From a virus, in IMG/VR virus record IMGVR_UViG_3300032053_000584, positions 1 through 22,315 of that record: a stretch of 22,315 nucleotides of DNA; one strand, given 5' to 3'. Below are positions 3,796 through 17,488 of the stretch, piece after piece (within the stretch, counting starts at the first letter, position 1; every line of letters begins with the position of its first letter). The notes beneath the pieces are model-generated. The model ran no database searches. It was not told where the DNA came from and worked only from the letters and a program-made list of their open reading frames with translations. The position numbers and the translations under genes are program-made.

Positions 3796-5424
3796 ATGAC
3801 GGTGGTAGCGCTAGCAATGCCCGTCACCGCCGGCCCTACCTGGCAGCGTGACAAGCACGGTAAGTTTGTCCTTCCGACGCATACGCTTGGCTGGGACATC
3901 CTCGGCTGGACGGCGGAATACCTGCTCCAGCCGGACGGTCCCCTAGCTGGCGACCCGTGGAAGTTCACGCAGGAGCAAGCCCGTTTCCTTCTTTGGTGGT
4001 ATGCCGTCGACGAGCGAGGCCGTTTCATCTATCGCTCGGGGATGCTGCGAAGGATGAAGGGGTGGGGTAAGGACCCATTCGCGGCTGCGATTTGTGGTGT
4101 TGAGTTCGTTGGGCCATGCCGGTTCGACCGTTGGGAGAACGGGCAACCAATCGGGGAACGGCATTATTCGGCTTGGATACAGGCTGCGGCCGTTTCGCGT
4201 GAGCAGACCCGCAACCTGATGACGATCTTCCCGGCCATGATGTCGCCGAAGATGATCGCCGAGTTCGGTGTCGATGTCGGCAAGGAGATCATCTACGCGA
4301 ACAACGGGCGCCAGCAAATCCAGGCCGTAACGAGTTCGCCACGGGCGCTTGAGGGCGGGCGTGCAACCTGCGTTATCAAGGACGAAACTCATCACTGGCT
4401 CGGCTCCAACGAAGGTCACGAGATGAGCAAGGTCATTGCCCGCAACGTGGCGAAGTCGCGCGACGGCTCCTCGCGGGTGCTGGCGATCTCCAATGCCCAT
4501 GCGCCTGGTGAGAACTCCGATGCGCAGAGCGACTATGAGACAGCGCAGAAGATCGCTCAGGCCGGTTTGGCGAGCGACTTCCTCTATGACTCGCTCGAAG
4601 CGCCGGAGGGCATTGACCTGGATGACGATGGGGCGGTCTTGTCGGGTGTCCTGGCCGCCTGTGGCGACTCCGAATGGGTCAGCCCGGATCGTCTACTAGC
4701 TGAGATTCGCGACCCCCGGACGTCGCCCGCGATGGCGCGGCGCTTCTACCTGAATCAGATCGTCGCCGAAGAGGACAAGCCCTTCGACTACGAGCAATGG
4801 CTGACGCTGGGAAAGCCCGACTACGTCGTGCCGGACGGCGCGCTGATAACGCTCGGCTTCGATGGTTCGACGAAGCGCGACCACACCGCGCTCATCGGGA
4901 CCGAGATTGTGACCGGGCACCAATGGGTCGTCGGCTACTGGGAACCCATAGAGACGCGTGCCGGTGAGATAGAGATTCCCTTCTTTGAGGTCGACGCGAC
5001 TGTCGACGCGGCATTCACCCGCTGGAAGGTCTGGCGCGGCAACTTCGACCCCTTCTACTGGCGGGACATGGTCGCGGCCTGGGCGGGCCGGTACGGGGCG
5101 GACATCGTCGTGAGTTGGGACACGACCAAGTACGGCAAGATGGCGTTCTCGCTACTGGCGTATCGCGAGGCGATACAGACTGGCGCCCTCTCCCATGACG
5201 GCGACCCGCGTTTCGCTGCCTGCATCCAGAACGCCCACAAACACATGCTGTCCATGACGGATGACGACGGCAACCGACTGTGGGTGATCCAGAAGGAGCG
5301 CCCGGACTCGCCGCTGAAGATCGACGCGGCGATGGCGGGTTGCCTATCCTGGGAAGCGTACACAGCGGCGATAGCGGCCGGCGCGAGCACGGAGCCGGTG
5401 GGAATAGGGATGATGCTGGTATGA
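3796..5424 (+). CDS. terL: Terminase large subunit
   Basis: 542 residues from the ATG at 3796; a TTG 36 bases upstream in frame is less likely because it lies within the preceding small ORF. The N-terminal ATPase has a KGWGKDP motif (residues 88-94) as a degenerate Walker A, found in actinophage-type TerL, and CVIKDETHHW (192-201) with Asp196-Glu197 as Walker B. The C-terminal RNase H-like nuclease shows LGFDGSTKRD (Asp356) and SWDTTKYGK (Asp442) as candidate metal ligands. The protein packages concatemeric DNA into the prohead with TerS, the portal and probably the HNH protein at 1582. The length is usual for this subgroup. The stop is in an ATGA overlap. Confidence 0.95.
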   Translation: MTVVALAMPVTAGPTWQRDKHGKFVLPTHTLGWDILGWTAEYLLQPDGPLAGDPWKFTQEQARFLLWWYAVDERGRFIYRSGMLRRMKGWGKDPFAAAICGVEFVGPCRFDRWENGQPIGERHYSAWIQAAAVSREQTRNLMTIFPAMMSPKMIAEFGVDVGKEIIYANNGRQQIQAVTSSPRALEGGRATCVIKDETHHWLGSNEGHEMSKVIARNVAKSRDGSSRVLAISNAHAPGENSDAQSDYETAQKIAQAGLASDFLYDSLEAPEGIDLDDDGAVLSGVLAACGDSEWVSPDRLLAEIRDPRTSPAMARRFYLNQIVAEEDKPFDYEQWLTLGKPDYVVPDGALITLGFDGSTKRDHTALIGTEIVTGHQWVVGYWEPIETRAGEIEIPFFEVDATVDAAFTRWKVWRGNFDPFYWRDMVAAWAGRYGADIVVSWDTTKYGKMAFSLLAYREAIQTGALSHDGDPRFAACIQNAHKHMLSMTDDDGNRLWVIQKERPDSPLKIDAAMAGCLSWEAYTAAIAAGASTEPVGIGMMLV

Positions 5425-5438
5425 TCCGCTTACCTGTA

Positions 5439-5458
5439 TTGACAATTAAGCGTATAAT
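5439..5458 (+). promoter_or_regulatory. Promoter-like element TTGACA-N8-TATAAT after TerL
   Basis: A perfect TTGACA (5439-5444) and perfect TATAAT (5453-5458) are only 8 bases apart, too close for a normal sigma70 pair, with GCG directly before TATAAT as at 1553-1555 and 7410-7412. The ATG at 5466 lies 7 bases after the -10, exactly where transcription would start. It may therefore drive a leaderless mRNA for the mini-protein and the downstream membrane and head genes. Confidence 0.4.
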
Positions 5459-5465
5459 GTCGGGG

Positions 5466-5588
5466 ATGAGGCAAACATGCCGACATGAGCGGGTCAGTAC
5501 TGCCGGGTGGTGTGAAATCTGTGGCCAACCGATGGAAGATGCCCTCTACGTCGTGCGCCGCGAGGTTCCGAACAGTGAAAATCATTGA
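5466..5588 (+). CDS. Zinc-knuckle mini-protein, 40 residues
   Basis: Reads MRQTCRHERV then WCEICGQPM, with Cys5, His7, Cys16 and Cys19 as a probable zinc site. A second possible start is the ATG at 5421, overlapping the TerL stop (ATGA), which would add 15 residues encoded over the promoter-like element. The 5466 start is preferred because the extra residues look like translated promoter sequence, but the genome's habit of ATGA coupling favours 5421; both may be used. Similar CRHER...WCxxCG mini-proteins are frequent in phages of GC-rich hosts and have no known function. Confidence 0.6.
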   Translation: MRQTCRHERVSTAGWCEICGQPMEDALYVVRREVPNSENH

Positions 5589-5715
5589 TGCTGACGACCG
5601 CAAGGTGCTCGCGCAGTGGGCGATCCTCGTCCTCACCGCTATCGTCGTCCTCATCGTGGCGGCGGGCGCCCTCGGGTTCGCCCTCTCAGTGTTTGAGGCG
5701 GCAAGGAGGTTGTAG
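5575..5715 (+). CDS. Single-pass membrane mini-protein, 46 residues
   Basis: A GTG at 5575, preceded by GAGGTTCCGAACA, overlaps the previous gene by 14 bases. The short N-terminus VKIIDADDRKV is followed by about 25 hydrophobic residues (AILVLTAIVVLIVAAGALGF and beyond), one clear transmembrane helix, then a short FEAARRL tail. The charge pattern suggests the N-terminus is outside or ambiguous. With the next gene it forms a pair of membrane peptides between TerL and portal, an uncommon place for membrane proteins. A holin-like or membrane-modulating role is possible but not shown. Confidence 0.6.
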   Translation: MKIIDADDRKVLAQWAILVLTAIVVLIVAAGALGFALSVFEAARRL

Positions 5716-14210: not shown

Positions 14211-14420
14211 ATGGACAAGCGCGATGAACTCATTGCTCAGGGATACGGCGCCGTGGTTAAGGGGTGCATTGCCCATCGGACAGACGGCGATTGCTGGACC
14301 GAGAAGGACTGGCTCATACCGCTCAAGGATATGGAAGAAGCGATTGATCACGGGTACACGAGGTGCAGGAAATGCGGCTCGACATCGGCTGCGGAGACAA
14401 GCGAGACGAAGGCTACCTAG
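14211..14420 (+). CDS. Zinc-knuckle mini-protein, 69 residues
   Basis: The ATG at 14211 follows AATAGGAGTCCAC. Cys19, Cys28, Cys52 and Cys55 (in TRCRKCGS) give a possible zinc site split across a DWLIPLKDMEEAIDHGY segment. The tail is Ser/Thr-rich. Its last 49 bases overlap the methyltransferase gene, which starts in another frame. First gene of the cargo block; function not recognised. Confidence 0.6.
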   Translation: MDKRDELIAQGYGAVVKGCIAHRTDGDCWTEKDWLIPLKDMEEAIDHGYTRCRKCGSTSAAETSETKAT

Positions 14421-14806
14421 CGACTGACATCGCCGGACGTCCAGACGTCATCTGCGATGCCCGCCACTTGCCCTTCAAGGATGGCACGTTCGAGAAGGTG
14501 CGGATGCTACACGTTCTTGAGCACATCCCGCGCGAGTTCCTGGTACAGACGGTGAACGAATGCCATCGCGTGACGGTTGAGGAGGGCGAACTGGAGATCG
14601 AAGTTCCGATCTTCCCGTCCGACGATGCGATGGCAGACCCGACGCATATCAGTTTCTTCGTGCCGCGAACCTTCGACTACTTCGTCGATGGCAAGGGCTT
14701 CGACGAACACCGGCGGCTCTACGGGATAGCGCGCTGGGCATACATCGACCGGGAGCGCTTGGGCGACAACAGCATCATTAACGTGAGGCTCCAGCGATGC
14801 GAGTGA
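14372..14806 (+). CDS. SAM-dependent methyltransferase (class I)
   Basis: 144 residues from the ATG at 14372, which has GAGG eight bases upstream; a GTG three codons earlier is possible. It opens with motif I, RLDIGCGDK, then YLATDI as the acidic strand-2 end, ICDARHLPFKDGTFEKV and the MLHVLEHIP strand typical of Methyltransf_11 proteins. It is short for the family, lacking a large substrate domain. The substrate is unknown. The next gene is a glycosyltransferase overlapping by 10 bases, and such pairs usually belong to glycan synthesis or decoration rather than DNA methylation. No DNA target-recognition motif (such as DPPY/NPPY) is seen. Confidence 0.85.
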   Translation: MRLDIGCGDKRDEGYLATDIAGRPDVICDARHLPFKDGTFEKVRMLHVLEHIPREFLVQTVNECHRVTVEEGELEIEVPIFPSDDAMADPTHISFFVPRTFDYFVDGKGFDEHRRLYGIARWAYIDRERLGDNSIINVRLQRCE

Positions 14807-15843
14807 TGATTGTCTCTTCGCCGCACGCCTTCAGTACCCGCGATGTCTACACTGGGCATCTGGCAGGGCTGCGCGCGTGCCTAGGCGAGAAGAACGTCAT
14901 CAGTTATGACATCCTGCACCGCTTCAACCTATTCCACTCCTGGACGAAGTTCATCGAGCAGGAGACGGGCAGCGTACCGCGCGAACTGCGCGCTAACATC
15001 CTTGCCTCAGAGCCCGTCTTCGGCGCTGCCCACTATCACGAGGTCGACGCCGTCTACCTCATCTCGCCGATGTACTTCCCCATGAGCATCATCGATATGT
15101 TCCGCAAGGACGGCTTCAAGGTGTGGGCGTACTTCACCGAATGCCCATATGAGGATGAGTTCTGGGCCAGGGGCCAGGCCAGCCACTTCGATGCTTGCTT
15201 TGTCAACGACCGCTACAGCCTTCCTCGCTACCAGACATTCAACCACCGCACGGCGTACCTGGGGCATTCGTACAACCCCGCCATACATCACCCAGGACGC
15301 GGGCCGGCCCCTGGCCACCAACACGTCATCATGGTAGGCACCGGGTTCAAGACGCGCCGCGACTTCATCGCTGAAGCCGATTGGGAGGGCATCGACCTCC
15401 GGCTCTACGGCGGGATGTGGGACGGCATCGCCGGCGAAGTCGACTGGCCGCTGTACTCCCGCGTCCGTCCGCGCCTCATCGAGAACCAGACAACGGCCAA
15501 GATATATCGCGGCGCCACCATTGGGCTCTCGATGCACCGCGCCGAGCGCACATTCGAGGCCGAGCAGTACATCGACAGGGGCGAGGCGTACTCAGTCGGG
15601 CCGCGAACCTACGAGCTCGCCGCCTGTGGCCTGTTCCAGATAAGCGACTACCGGCCCGAACTTAAGGACATCTTCGAGGACACCGTGCCCATCTACAACT
15701 CGCCGCAGGAAATGGAGCGGCTGGTCAGGCATTATCTAGCGAACCCAGAGGAGCGCCAGGAGTTTGCAGGGCGACAACTGGAAGCAGTCAAGCCGCATAC
15801 GGTCGAGCGGCGAATGGCAGAACTCCTGGAATATGTAGCGTAA
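14797..15843 (+). CDS. CgeB-like glycosyltransferase
   Basis: 348 residues, overlapping the methyltransferase. It starts MRVMIVSSPHAFSTRD, an N-terminal Rossmann strand and loop. The C-terminal half carries the GT-B hallmark YSVGPRTYELAACGLFQISD (residues 265-284) followed by ELKDIFEDTVPIY and a helical LVRHYLANPEERQEFA tail, as in the CgeB/YkvP family (spore-coat and phage glycosyltransferases). ATIGLSMHRAE lies before it. It would transfer a sugar from a nucleotide donor. Since it is encoded in the late morphogenesis region, decoration of virion protein or of the host surface is a reasonable guess. No membrane helix is present. Confidence 0.85.
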   Translation: MRVMIVSSPHAFSTRDVYTGHLAGLRACLGEKNVISYDILHRFNLFHSWTKFIEQETGSVPRELRANILASEPVFGAAHYHEVDAVYLISPMYFPMSIIDMFRKDGFKVWAYFTECPYEDEFWARGQASHFDACFVNDRYSLPRYQTFNHRTAYLGHSYNPAIHHPGRGPAPGHQHVIMVGTGFKTRRDFIAEADWEGIDLRLYGGMWDGIAGEVDWPLYSRVRPRLIENQTTAKIYRGATIGLSMHRAERTFEAEQYIDRGEAYSVGPRTYELAACGLFQISDYRPELKDIFEDTVPIYNSPQEMERLVRHYLANPEERQEFAGRQLEAVKPHTVERRMAELLEYVA

Positions 15844-15848
15844 AGGAA

Positions 15849-16562
15849 TTAGGGATGCGCGAGTTCGCGGACACGTTCGATGGAATCGAAGCGGCGCCAG
15901 AAGGTGCGCCAATCGGGCATGTTGTTGCGATTGCCGCATTCGGACGAATTGGGCGGGTGACCCAGCAGAATCCAGCGCGAACGATAAGTCTCAAGCAGTT
16001 CGGCATTGGAGATGTACGCATGATAACTTCCGGGCGTGTGCTGATGCAGTGTCTTGTGCTGCTGGCGCGTCAGGCAAACCAGATTCTCCAAGCGGTTGTC
16101 ATCTCGCACGCCGTTGATGTGATGAACCTGAGAGCCTACGGGAATCGGGCCATGCTCCGCCTCCCATACAAGGACATGTTCCCCCACATATCGGCGATCC
16201 CTCAAGAGCATGACATAACCGGATTGCCTCATTCTCCCGCCCTTCCAACGTGGGTTAGCAGCTCCAGTAGGAGTCGTAACCCGTCCATTGTGGCCATGAA
16301 CGAAGCGCAAGGGATACCCGATATATTGCCCGCGCTTATGGTTGGCGGTTGTGGCGATGGCGGTCGACTCGCCGCATCCACATTCACAAAGGCCAGTTGG
16401 CGGTGCCCAATTAGCAGATGGTGGCGTTCGTGCGCCTCGCTTCATCTGCTGAAAGGCACCCGTCTTGGCCCAATGACCCTGAACGAAACGGGCACTACGG
16501 TTCGGGTTCTTCCTGCTACGCGGAGGCAGGGGAAGTCCACATCCACAGGCGCATTCAGTCAT
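15849..16562 (-). CDS. HNH homing endonuclease, antisense in the tail module
   Basis: 237 residues on the strand opposite to all neighbours, ending six bases after the glycosyltransferase stop. The ATG at 16562 is chosen; a GTG at 16580 is possible. Residues 4-30 and 59-91 are two similar modules, CACGCG...RFVQGHW and CECGCG...RFVHGHN, probably zinc-binding DNA contacts. HNH_3-like motifs follow: EHVLVWEAEHGPIP, VHHINGVRDDNRLENLVCL (His147, His148, Asn150, Asn160), then QHKTLHQ (His169, His173). The last 60 residues look like a DNA-binding helix region (RTFWRRFDSIERVR). Free-standing homing nucleases of this build are common phage parasites. It has its own promoter and no ribosome-binding site. 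Confidence 0.9.
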   Translation of the reverse strand: MTECACGCGLPLPPRSRKNPNRSARFVQGHWAKTGAFQQMKRGARTPPSANWAPPTGLCECGCGESTAIATTANHKRGQYIGYPLRFVHGHNGRVTTPTGAANPRWKGGRMRQSGYVMLLRDRRYVGEHVLVWEAEHGPIPVGSQVHHINGVRDDNRLENLVCLTRQQHKTLHQHTPGSYHAYISNAELLETYRSRWILLGHPPNSSECGNRNNMPDWRTFWRRFDSIERVRELAHP

Positions 16563-16568
16563 ACCGTA

Positions 16569-16597
16569 AGTGTAACACACTAGAGAGGAAGGTGCAA
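16569..16597 (-). promoter_or_regulatory. Promoter of the antisense homing endonuclease
   Basis: On the minus strand, TTGCAC (16597-16592), a 17-base spacer and TACACT (16574-16569). Six bases then separate the -10 from the ATG at 16562, so the transcript would start at or next to the start codon: a leaderless mRNA. The -35 overlaps the ribosome-binding region of the rightward tail gene starting at 16599. Confidence 0.55.
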
Positions 16598-16598
16598 T

Positions 16599-16997
16599 AT
16601 CAGCACGTTACTAGGCAGAGACGCAGCGGTATATTGGGGTTCTACGGTAAGCCCCTCGCGCATCGCTGAGACTCGCAACATTAGCATCGACATGGGAGCG
16701 GAGTGGGTCGACGATACTGTCCACACCGACACCAACCGCAGTGAGCAGCCGACCTTCAGCACGTTCACCTGCACGATTACGGGCCTCTACGACGACGCGG
16801 CCTTCATTGTGACGGATGACGCGATAGCGAAGGTGCAGGGCTACTTCTACGTTTACCCGAAGTCCAGCGTCAACACGCAGTACTTCTACGGGCGCGGTTA
16901 CGTGTCGGTCGACGAACTGAGCCTGCCCTACGATGACTTCTCGACCTTCAACTGGACGATCAAGCCGTCGGGAACCGTCACGTTCAAGCACGCGTAA
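16599..16997 (+). CDS. Probable major tail protein with an apparent ATC start
   Basis: In frame, the protein can be read from an ATC at 16599 (ISTLLGRDAAVYWGS...), six bases after a strong AGAGAGGAAGG site; a TAG lies upstream at 16581. There is no ATG, GTG or TTG before the ATG at 16692, which would cut off 31 residues that look genuine (RDAAVYWGSTV, AETRNISIDMG). From ATC the length is 132 residues. Segments RNISIDMGAEWVDDTVH, FTCTITGLYDDAA and GYVSVDELSLPYDDFSTFNW fit small major tail tube proteins. It lies upstream of the tail chaperones and tape measure, the expected place. Either ATC is used, or ATG was mutated or misread. Confidence 0.75.
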   Translation: MSTLLGRDAAVYWGSTVSPSRIAETRNISIDMGAEWVDDTVHTDTNRSEQPTFSTFTCTITGLYDDAAFIVTDDAIAKVQGYFYVYPKSSVNTQYFYGRGYVSVDELSLPYDDFSTFNWTIKPSGTVTFKHA

Positions 16998-17488
16998 TGC
17001 GACGCGAAGTCCGTCAATGGGTCGAGCGGGTCGTGCAGGAGAAGGCGCCGCAAGCGCCGGTTCTCGAAGTGGGTGCATTGAATATCAACGGCACCTGCCG
17101 CGACCTGTTCCCGCAAGAGAGCTACATCGGCCTGGACACGCAGGAGGGCAAGGGCGTCGACATGGTAGGCGACATCATGGAGCCACTTCGGATTCTGTAC
17201 TACGGCTTCAACACCGTCCTCTGCCTGGAGACGCTAGAGCACATCGCCCAGCCGTTCAAGGCCCTCATGCGGATGCACGACTGCCTGATACCGGGCGGCC
17301 TGTTCATCGGCTCGTGGGTCTTCAAGTTTGCGATCCACCATGCGCCAGACTACTGGCGGGTGACGCCGGCGGGCTTCCGCTACGCGCTGGAGCAGGCGGG
17401 ATTCGAGGAGATCAACATCGAGACGGAAGGCGAAGGGCCGGTGGGTGTGTTCGCTACTGCACGGAGGCCGAATGAAGTCGCTACATGA
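16997..17488 (+). CDS. Second SAM-dependent methyltransferase
   Basis: 163 residues, starting in the stop codon of the tail protein (TAATG), with no separate ribosome-binding site. PVLEVGALNINGTC forms a motif I variant (Glu-Val-Gly-Ala), followed by SYIGLDTQEG, a VLCLETLEHI strand, and PGGLFIGSWVF; the C-terminal YWRVTPAGFRYALEQAGF is typical of Methyltransf_11/23-type enzymes acting on small molecules or glycans. It shares overall design but little sequence with the enzyme at 14372. The location between the major tail protein and the tail chaperones is unusual and suggests inserted cargo. Substrate unknown. Confidence 0.82.
   Translation: MRREVRQWVERVVQEKAPQAPVLEVGALNINGTCRDLFPQESYIGLDTQEGKGVDMVGDIMEPLRILYYGFNTVLCLETLEHIAQPFKALMRMHDCLIPGGLFIGSWVFKFAIHHAPDYWRVTPAGFRYALEQAGFEEINIETEGEGPVGVFATARRPNEVAT

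Follow-up and report, generated by a model that had tools for sequence, protein, structure and literature searches.

A minus-strand HNH endonuclease gene at the translation start of a phage tail gene, and its probable membership of a mobile, tail-linked family

In a 22,315-base viral record, the whole of which we call the window, an HNH gene lies antisense between a glycosyltransferase gene and the gene for the major tail protein (MTP), the tail tube protein. Comparison with related phages makes it probable that this gene encodes a free-standing homing-type HNH endonuclease, and that it belongs to a mobile family specialized on the translation-start regions of MTP genes.

The HNH gene and its product

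The recognizable genes of the window, which include terminase, portal, protease, major head protein, tail module and tape measure genes, lie on the plus strand, with a single exception, the HNH open reading frame (ORF) at 15849-16580. An earlier, preliminary description of this DNA had placed the gene opposite to all its neighbors, as is borne out by every recognizable neighbor. It had also noted a tight fit between stop codons with six bases between them; the stops are indeed adjacent, at 15843 and 15849, and the interval is five bases. The relevant features are as follows.

14797-15843, plus strand: glycosyltransferase gene, operon-upstream of the insert (PF13524, E 7.8e-24); adjoins the MTP gene in HNH-less relatives
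15844-15847, plus strand: AGGA, leftover of the ancestral MTP Shine-Dalgarno sequence at the left insert edge (comparison with L006 and L007)
15848-16585, no strand: approximate inserted segment (spacer comparison)
15849-16562, minus strand: HNH endonuclease gene, 237 aa from ATG 16562 (Pfam HNH_3 and PHROG HNH families)
15855-16583, plus strand: shadow ORF of 242 codons in the exact antisense register of the HNH gene (no family match; stop avoidance)
16056-16178, minus strand: HNH catalytic domain, residues 129-169, VHHINGVRDDNRLENL...QQHKTLH (Pfam; alignment)
16281-16394, minus strand: second CxCGC module, CECGCG...RFVHGHNGR (Cys invariant in alignment)
16464-16553, minus strand: first CxCGC module, CACGCG...FVQGH (Cys invariant in alignment)
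16569-16574, minus strand: TACACT, a candidate extended (TG) -10 element, 6 nt upstream of the ATG (position conserved in the family)
16584-16594, plus strand: Shine-Dalgarno region of the MTP gene, AGAGGAAGGTG (sequence)
16592-16597, minus strand: -35-like TTGCAC within the MTP ribosome-binding region (sequence)
16599-16997, plus strand: MTP gene (phrog_1407, E 4e-7), with ATC at the start-codon position

ATG 16562 is preferred as the HNH start over the less likely in-frame GTG 16580, because the starts of family members fall just before the first CxCGC module. The ORF matched Pfam HNH_3 (PF13392) with an E value of 3.4e-19 and 68.6 bits, against a curated cut-off of 24.8. The catalytic HH...N...H is intact: in an alignment of 10 relatives, H147, H148, N156 and N160 were invariant and H169 was near-invariant. 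A weak match to HNH_repeat, a homing-associated repeat, was found at the C terminus. Both CxCGC modules lie N-terminal to the HNH core, and the T4 mob-type order, with HNH first and a C-terminal zinc finger, was not found in the window protein. The first module is probably a metal-binding, DNA-contacting module, and we infer a function for the second.

An AlphaFold2 model of the protein had a mean pLDDT of 69, with 80-94 in the HNH core and lower values in the modules. In a fold search, the top-ranked solved structures were Cas8-HNH and I-HmuI (PDB 1u3e, rank 2, E 0.075), both with E of about 0.07; these model-based matches are supportive of an HNH core and of nothing beyond it. A sequence search of the PDB gave no match. 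GC3 of the HNH gene is 60%, versus 79-81% in the flanking genes. The gene is not inside an intron or intein but between two complete genes, both of which align end to end with the copies in relatives. Separately, an apparent intein was observed in the terminase large subunit of L002 (about 4400-5700), with an HNH ORF inside it in a different frame.

Empty sites in relatives

We compared the window with viral contigs chosen by an MTP 42-87% identical to its own. Seven lineages (L006/L008, L007, L009/L010, L015, L018, L019 and L031) have no HNH gene at this site, and in all of them the glycosyltransferase and MTP genes are about 8-20 nt apart. The empty site that the preliminary description had proposed to seek in relatives was therefore found, and its refuting case, in which all relatives carry the gene, does not hold. 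The spacer between the two genes is 755 nt in the window versus 12 nt in L006, L007 and L008. A search of the rest of five records, several of them fragments, turned up no HNH homologue.

The empty junctions read TAA-CGGAGGTTCAAC-ATG in L006 and TAG-AGGAGATAATCA-ATG in L007, and the occupied junction of the window reads TAA-AGGA/ATTAG...HNH...AGAGGAAGGTGCAAT-ATC, where the slash marks the left insert edge. Comparison of these junctions indicates that the insertion split the MTP Shine-Dalgarno sequence, with AGGA on the left and a new Shine-Dalgarno sequence on the right. AGGAA repeats at 15844-15848 and 16586-16590 may flank the insert. The first 18 nt of the MTP gene are 44% identical between the window and L006, versus 82% over the rest of the gene, and L006 and L007 match at 16 of these 18 positions. 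The sequence beside the insert has therefore been exchanged or recoded, which is what either co-conversion or the loss of a recognition site should produce. These comparisons show recent gain or loss at the window site and support the view that the gene was gained.

The MTP start had been placed at 16599. The position stands, with ATG there in L006, L007 and L008; the codon in the window is ATC, which had gone unremarked and is possibly a base error in the record. On the other flank, the last 60 nt of the glycosyltransferase gene (15784-15843) are 95% identical to L006, versus 82% just upstream; identity is high in L007 too, and this 3' end is possibly conserved beyond protein reasons. A DNA-level search of isolate phages with the region and an exact search of viral contigs for the right junction of the window gave no match, and no MTP relatives were found in cellular genomes.

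A family linked to MTP genes

The nearest full-length relatives of the HNH protein were mostly encoded antisense to their neighbors, which PHROGs identified as MTP genes. We defined a subfamily by at least two CxCGC modules and an HHxxG HNH core, a definition written after ten cases had been seen, and scored as its niche the antisense position directly 5' of an MTP gene, counting non-duplicate loci. A local search with trimmed ORFs placed 15 of 17 subfamily members in this niche versus 1 of 105 other HNH relatives. It missed L119, whose 5' gene is an MTP gene (phrog_4574, E 1.6e-12), bringing the count to 16 of 17, the window among them. The exception, L061, matches in the HNH core only.

As a check for bias in the local search, PHROGs were run on the genes adjacent to control HNH relatives. 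The 37 control genes in the antisense 5' position gave one major-tail match, and the controls were taken as 2/105 (16/17 versus 2/105, Fisher P 6e-17). The other 103 control neighbors matched families such as portal, terminase, exonuclease and major head, and their 25 most frequent families did not include a major tail family. All six classifiable members found in a later scan, once the rule had been seen (L115, L117, L118, L119, L120 and L131), obey it.

All members of the family are known from metagenomic viral contigs. No full-length member was found among 50,697 phage isolate records searched with five queries, and in a search of 792 cellular genomes from two phyla none of the best matches was a core-type HNH.

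In the operon sense, the window, L034, L035 and L040 all have a PF13524 glycosyltransferase gene upstream of the insert. Glycosyltransferase and methyltransferase genes were also observed inside tail modules beside the MTP gene in several unrelated phages (window 14363-15843 and 16997-17488; L034, L035, L040), and their products may modify the tail tube. The methyltransferase gene directly follows the MTP gene in the window (16997-17488) and L007, and lies several genes upstream in L006 (1776-2246) and L008, and so has moved within the tail module.

Mobility of the family

The operons of L117 and L038 (whose contig is also numbered L122) are homologous, and each contains one long and one short MTP paralogue. 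The HNH gene of L117 lies 5' of the long MTP gene, and its long-short junction is empty; that of L038 sits in the long-short junction, and here it is the position 5' of the long MTP gene that is empty. Similarly, the HNH gene of L120 lies 5' of the first MTP gene (CAAGGATTAG...), a site that is empty in L039 (CAAGGAGGCATAATATG), where the HNH gene lies 5' of the second. In both pairs, the insertion points are in or adjoining the Shine-Dalgarno sequence. This comparison shows that the same type of site has been entered repeatedly in the same orientation, with a shift between neighboring MTP paralogues. The seven HNH-less lineages display the polymorphism expected of a free-standing homing endonuclease gene, which is present in some phages and absent from close relatives whose empty site is intact.

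The HNH proteins of L038 and L119 are 52% identical, and their MTPs 20%. Across the family, HNH and MTP similarity were weakly correlated (rho 0.21), and some vertical inheritance is therefore present. Tandem divergent MTP paralogues with an antisense HNH gene between them were observed in L038, L039, L045, L065, L131 and L155.

A predicted leaderless promoter

The preliminary description had proposed that the gene has its own leaderless promoter over the start signals of the tail gene. In the window, the layout is TTGCAC (16597-16592), 17 nt, TACACT (16574-16569), 6 nt and ATG (16562), with 3/6 matches to the -35 and 4/6 to the -10 consensus hexamer; the probability of an equally good site in 60 nt is 0.035. 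As had been described, the -35 (16592-16597) lies in the MTP ribosome-binding region, where it overlaps the end of the Shine-Dalgarno region 16584-16594. A generic promoter scan of the window did not call the site, and therefore the claim could not stand on the window alone.

We then counted -10 elements with a score of at least 4.5 located 6 or 7 nt before the start codon in a set of 17 genes, consisting of the 16 MTP-linked members and L155, which lies 5' of an MTP gene and has one CxCGC module. Such an element was present in 10 of the 17; the corresponding figures were 0.8% for random start codons in these loci and 4 of 77 for other HNH genes. L065 shares the layout of the window (TTGCAC-17-TATACT-6-ATG), L131 has TATACT-6-ATG, and L036 has ATGACA-17-TATAAT-6-GTG, with its -35 overlapping the MTP ATG. 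L115, L117 and L120 are among the members with a ribosome-binding site in place of the leaderless -10. The predicted leaderless promoter at the HNH ATG, overlapping the MTP start region, is thus supported by its conservation in the family. Predicted HNH transcription runs away from the MTP gene and against the late operon; the HNH gene would be expressed early and then silenced by late read-through.

The antisense register and MTP start codons

The shadow ORF begins 11 nt after the glycosyltransferase stop codon and ends 15 nt before the MTP start. A stop can appear in this register only where the HNH gene uses TTA, CTA or TCA. The 17 genes of the promoter count contain 30 such codons, where their third-position composition predicts 66.6 (ratio 0.45), and 8 of the 17 contain none. 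In 102 control HNH genes, there were 390 versus 427 expected (0.91), and 15 had none (permutation P 0.0028). In the eight stop-free members, the end of the shadow frame falls anywhere from 20 nt inside the MTP gene to 43 nt upstream of its start; in L034, the frame opens with an ATGA that overlaps the glycosyltransferase stop and closes 4 nt short of the MTP gene. This codon statistic fits, perhaps, selection for translation across the antisense gene, and the stop-free register suggests that interference with MTP expression, which the preliminary description had raised, is being reduced rather than exploited.

Four MTP genes with an adjacent HNH gene have a non-canonical codon at the start position: ATC (the window and L034), ATT (L045) and ACG (L115). 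The codon is ATT or ACG in the HNH-less L009/L010, which are separate contigs with identical sequence here. Each of these non-canonical starts has an upstream in-frame stop and a good Shine-Dalgarno sequence, and no ATG, GTG or TTG nearby. A link between HNH presence and a non-canonical MTP start was not established (4/17 versus 1/14, P 0.34).

Interpretation and alternatives

In the reading that we favor, the HNH gene has been inserted antisense into the ribosome-binding region of the MTP gene, and it is one case of a family whose niche, across phages that are otherwise unrelated, is the site where MTP translation starts. Conservation supports a predicted leaderless promoter that would start transcription at the HNH ATG, heading away from the MTP gene, and a new Shine-Dalgarno sequence on the MTP side of the insert. 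The open register on the operon strand, likewise supported by conservation, may let ribosomes on the late transcript cross the insert to the MTP gene. During co-infection, the HNH protein would nick or cut a relative's MTP start region that lacks the insert, and the HNH gene would be copied into that relative in the course of repair; where divergence prevents repair, the rival would be left with damage to an essential tail gene. Cleavage, promoter use and relay translation are inferred. The junction had been suggested as the cleavage target in phages lacking the gene; it does mark the insertion niche, which was seen independently in other phages, and it may be where the protein cuts.

A Shine-Dalgarno sequence is a feature of every gene, and the MTP start regions across the family have little in common beyond it. 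Recognition of sequence alone is therefore not an obvious cause of the niche, which might arise by selection after insertion. A fuller model is tentative and rather doubtful: the family would recognize tail-tube translation starts in unrelated phages, directly or by a shared DNA feature, insert only in antisense and with a leaderless promoter, and keep its complementary strand open for a translated relay, by which late ribosomes would arrive at the tail gene through reinitiation. If true, relay and reinitiation would explain how some of the tail genes get by with ATC, ATT or ACG starts.

It is unlikely that the gene is an ordinary free-standing HNH endonuclease without a tail-gene target, which inserts widely and survives at a tolerant position antisense and 5' of MTP genes. 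Tolerance by itself would not predict 16 of 17 members at one gene type, when other HNH relatives adjoin terminase, portal, endolysin and exonuclease genes, nor would it predict recoded MTP codons beside the insert. This alternative does accommodate the divergence of the MTP starts, which is too great for a single long recognition site (HNH 52%, MTP 20%), and the stop-free antisense register and new Shine-Dalgarno sites would fit selection for tolerance.

A domesticated regulator or tail-assembly accessory, passed on as a unit with the MTP gene and tuning MTP expression either itself or through its antisense transcript, would account for the tight linkage and for a promoter over the MTP start region, with the shadow ORF perhaps coupling translation. 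We consider it quite improbable, however, as the HNH gene is absent from close relatives with an ordinary start site, its position varies between homologous operons, the catalytic residues are kept and transcription heads away from the MTP gene. A last alternative, with an incidental HNH frame and the shadow ORF (15855-16583) as the true gene, is highly improbable: the shadow ORF is co-directional with the operon, with AGGA upstream of its start and 242 open codons, but it was rejected as the main coding frame by the HNH_3 match of the HNH frame (3.4e-19), the lack of any family match of its own and a register broken in 9 of 17 family members whose HNH gene is intact.

Homing endonuclease genes are usually catalogued insertion by insertion. 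Here, one subfamily is tied to the tail-tube gene, its ribosome-binding site and the antisense orientation, often with a leaderless design, across MTPs down to 20% alike. This provides a testable case of how a selfish gene can occupy the start signals of a gene that is both essential and highly expressed, and yet leave its carrier alive. The matched occupied and empty sites can be used to find the recognition sequence. In the complementary strand, with its lack of stops, there is a concrete instance of antisense overlap that may be selected at the level of RNA or translation.

Comparison with known systems

No description of an MTP-linked or antisense leaderless homing endonuclease family was found in open-access papers; the lack of isolates with full-length members may explain this. 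I-HmuI, an HNH homing nickase, resembles the window protein in its HNH core, as in the weak fold match above. It is encoded by an intron in a DNA polymerase gene, whereas the window gene lies between complete genes.

T4 mob genes (mobA-E) are likewise free-standing HNH endonuclease genes, intergenic in phage operons. They differ in lacking an MTP niche and in their expression: seven free-standing T4 genes, including mobA, mobC, mobD and mobE, ride upstream transcripts (PMC2988022). Mob-like genes of ICP1 encode an N-terminal HNH domain and a C-terminal zinc finger, and the same paper describes HNH-3 genes located within tail operons and essential genes flanked by endonuclease genes (PMC10448857). 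A precedent for the arrangement is T4 segD, a free-standing endonuclease gene lying antisense in the interval between genes 23 and 24 and reported without a recognizable promoter (PMC2988022). Like the window gene, segD lies beside a highly expressed structural gene, that for the major capsid protein; it differs in being of the GIY-YIG type, in lacking the leaderless promoter predicted for the MTP-linked family, and in being a single gene of one phage group rather than a family tied to one gene type.

C.PvuII also has a leaderless transcript from the initiator codon at an endonuclease locus (PMC2997769), although it is an activator-dependent restriction-modification controller and not a homing gene. 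A possible model for the benefit of the window gene is PhiPA3 gp210, an HNH endonuclease that acts in interference competition by damaging an essential gene of a co-infecting relative. By analogy, the window enzyme may act in the same way; gp210 differs in being intron-encoded, in targeting the virion RNA polymerase gene and in that its nicking was shown by experiment (PMC11620839).
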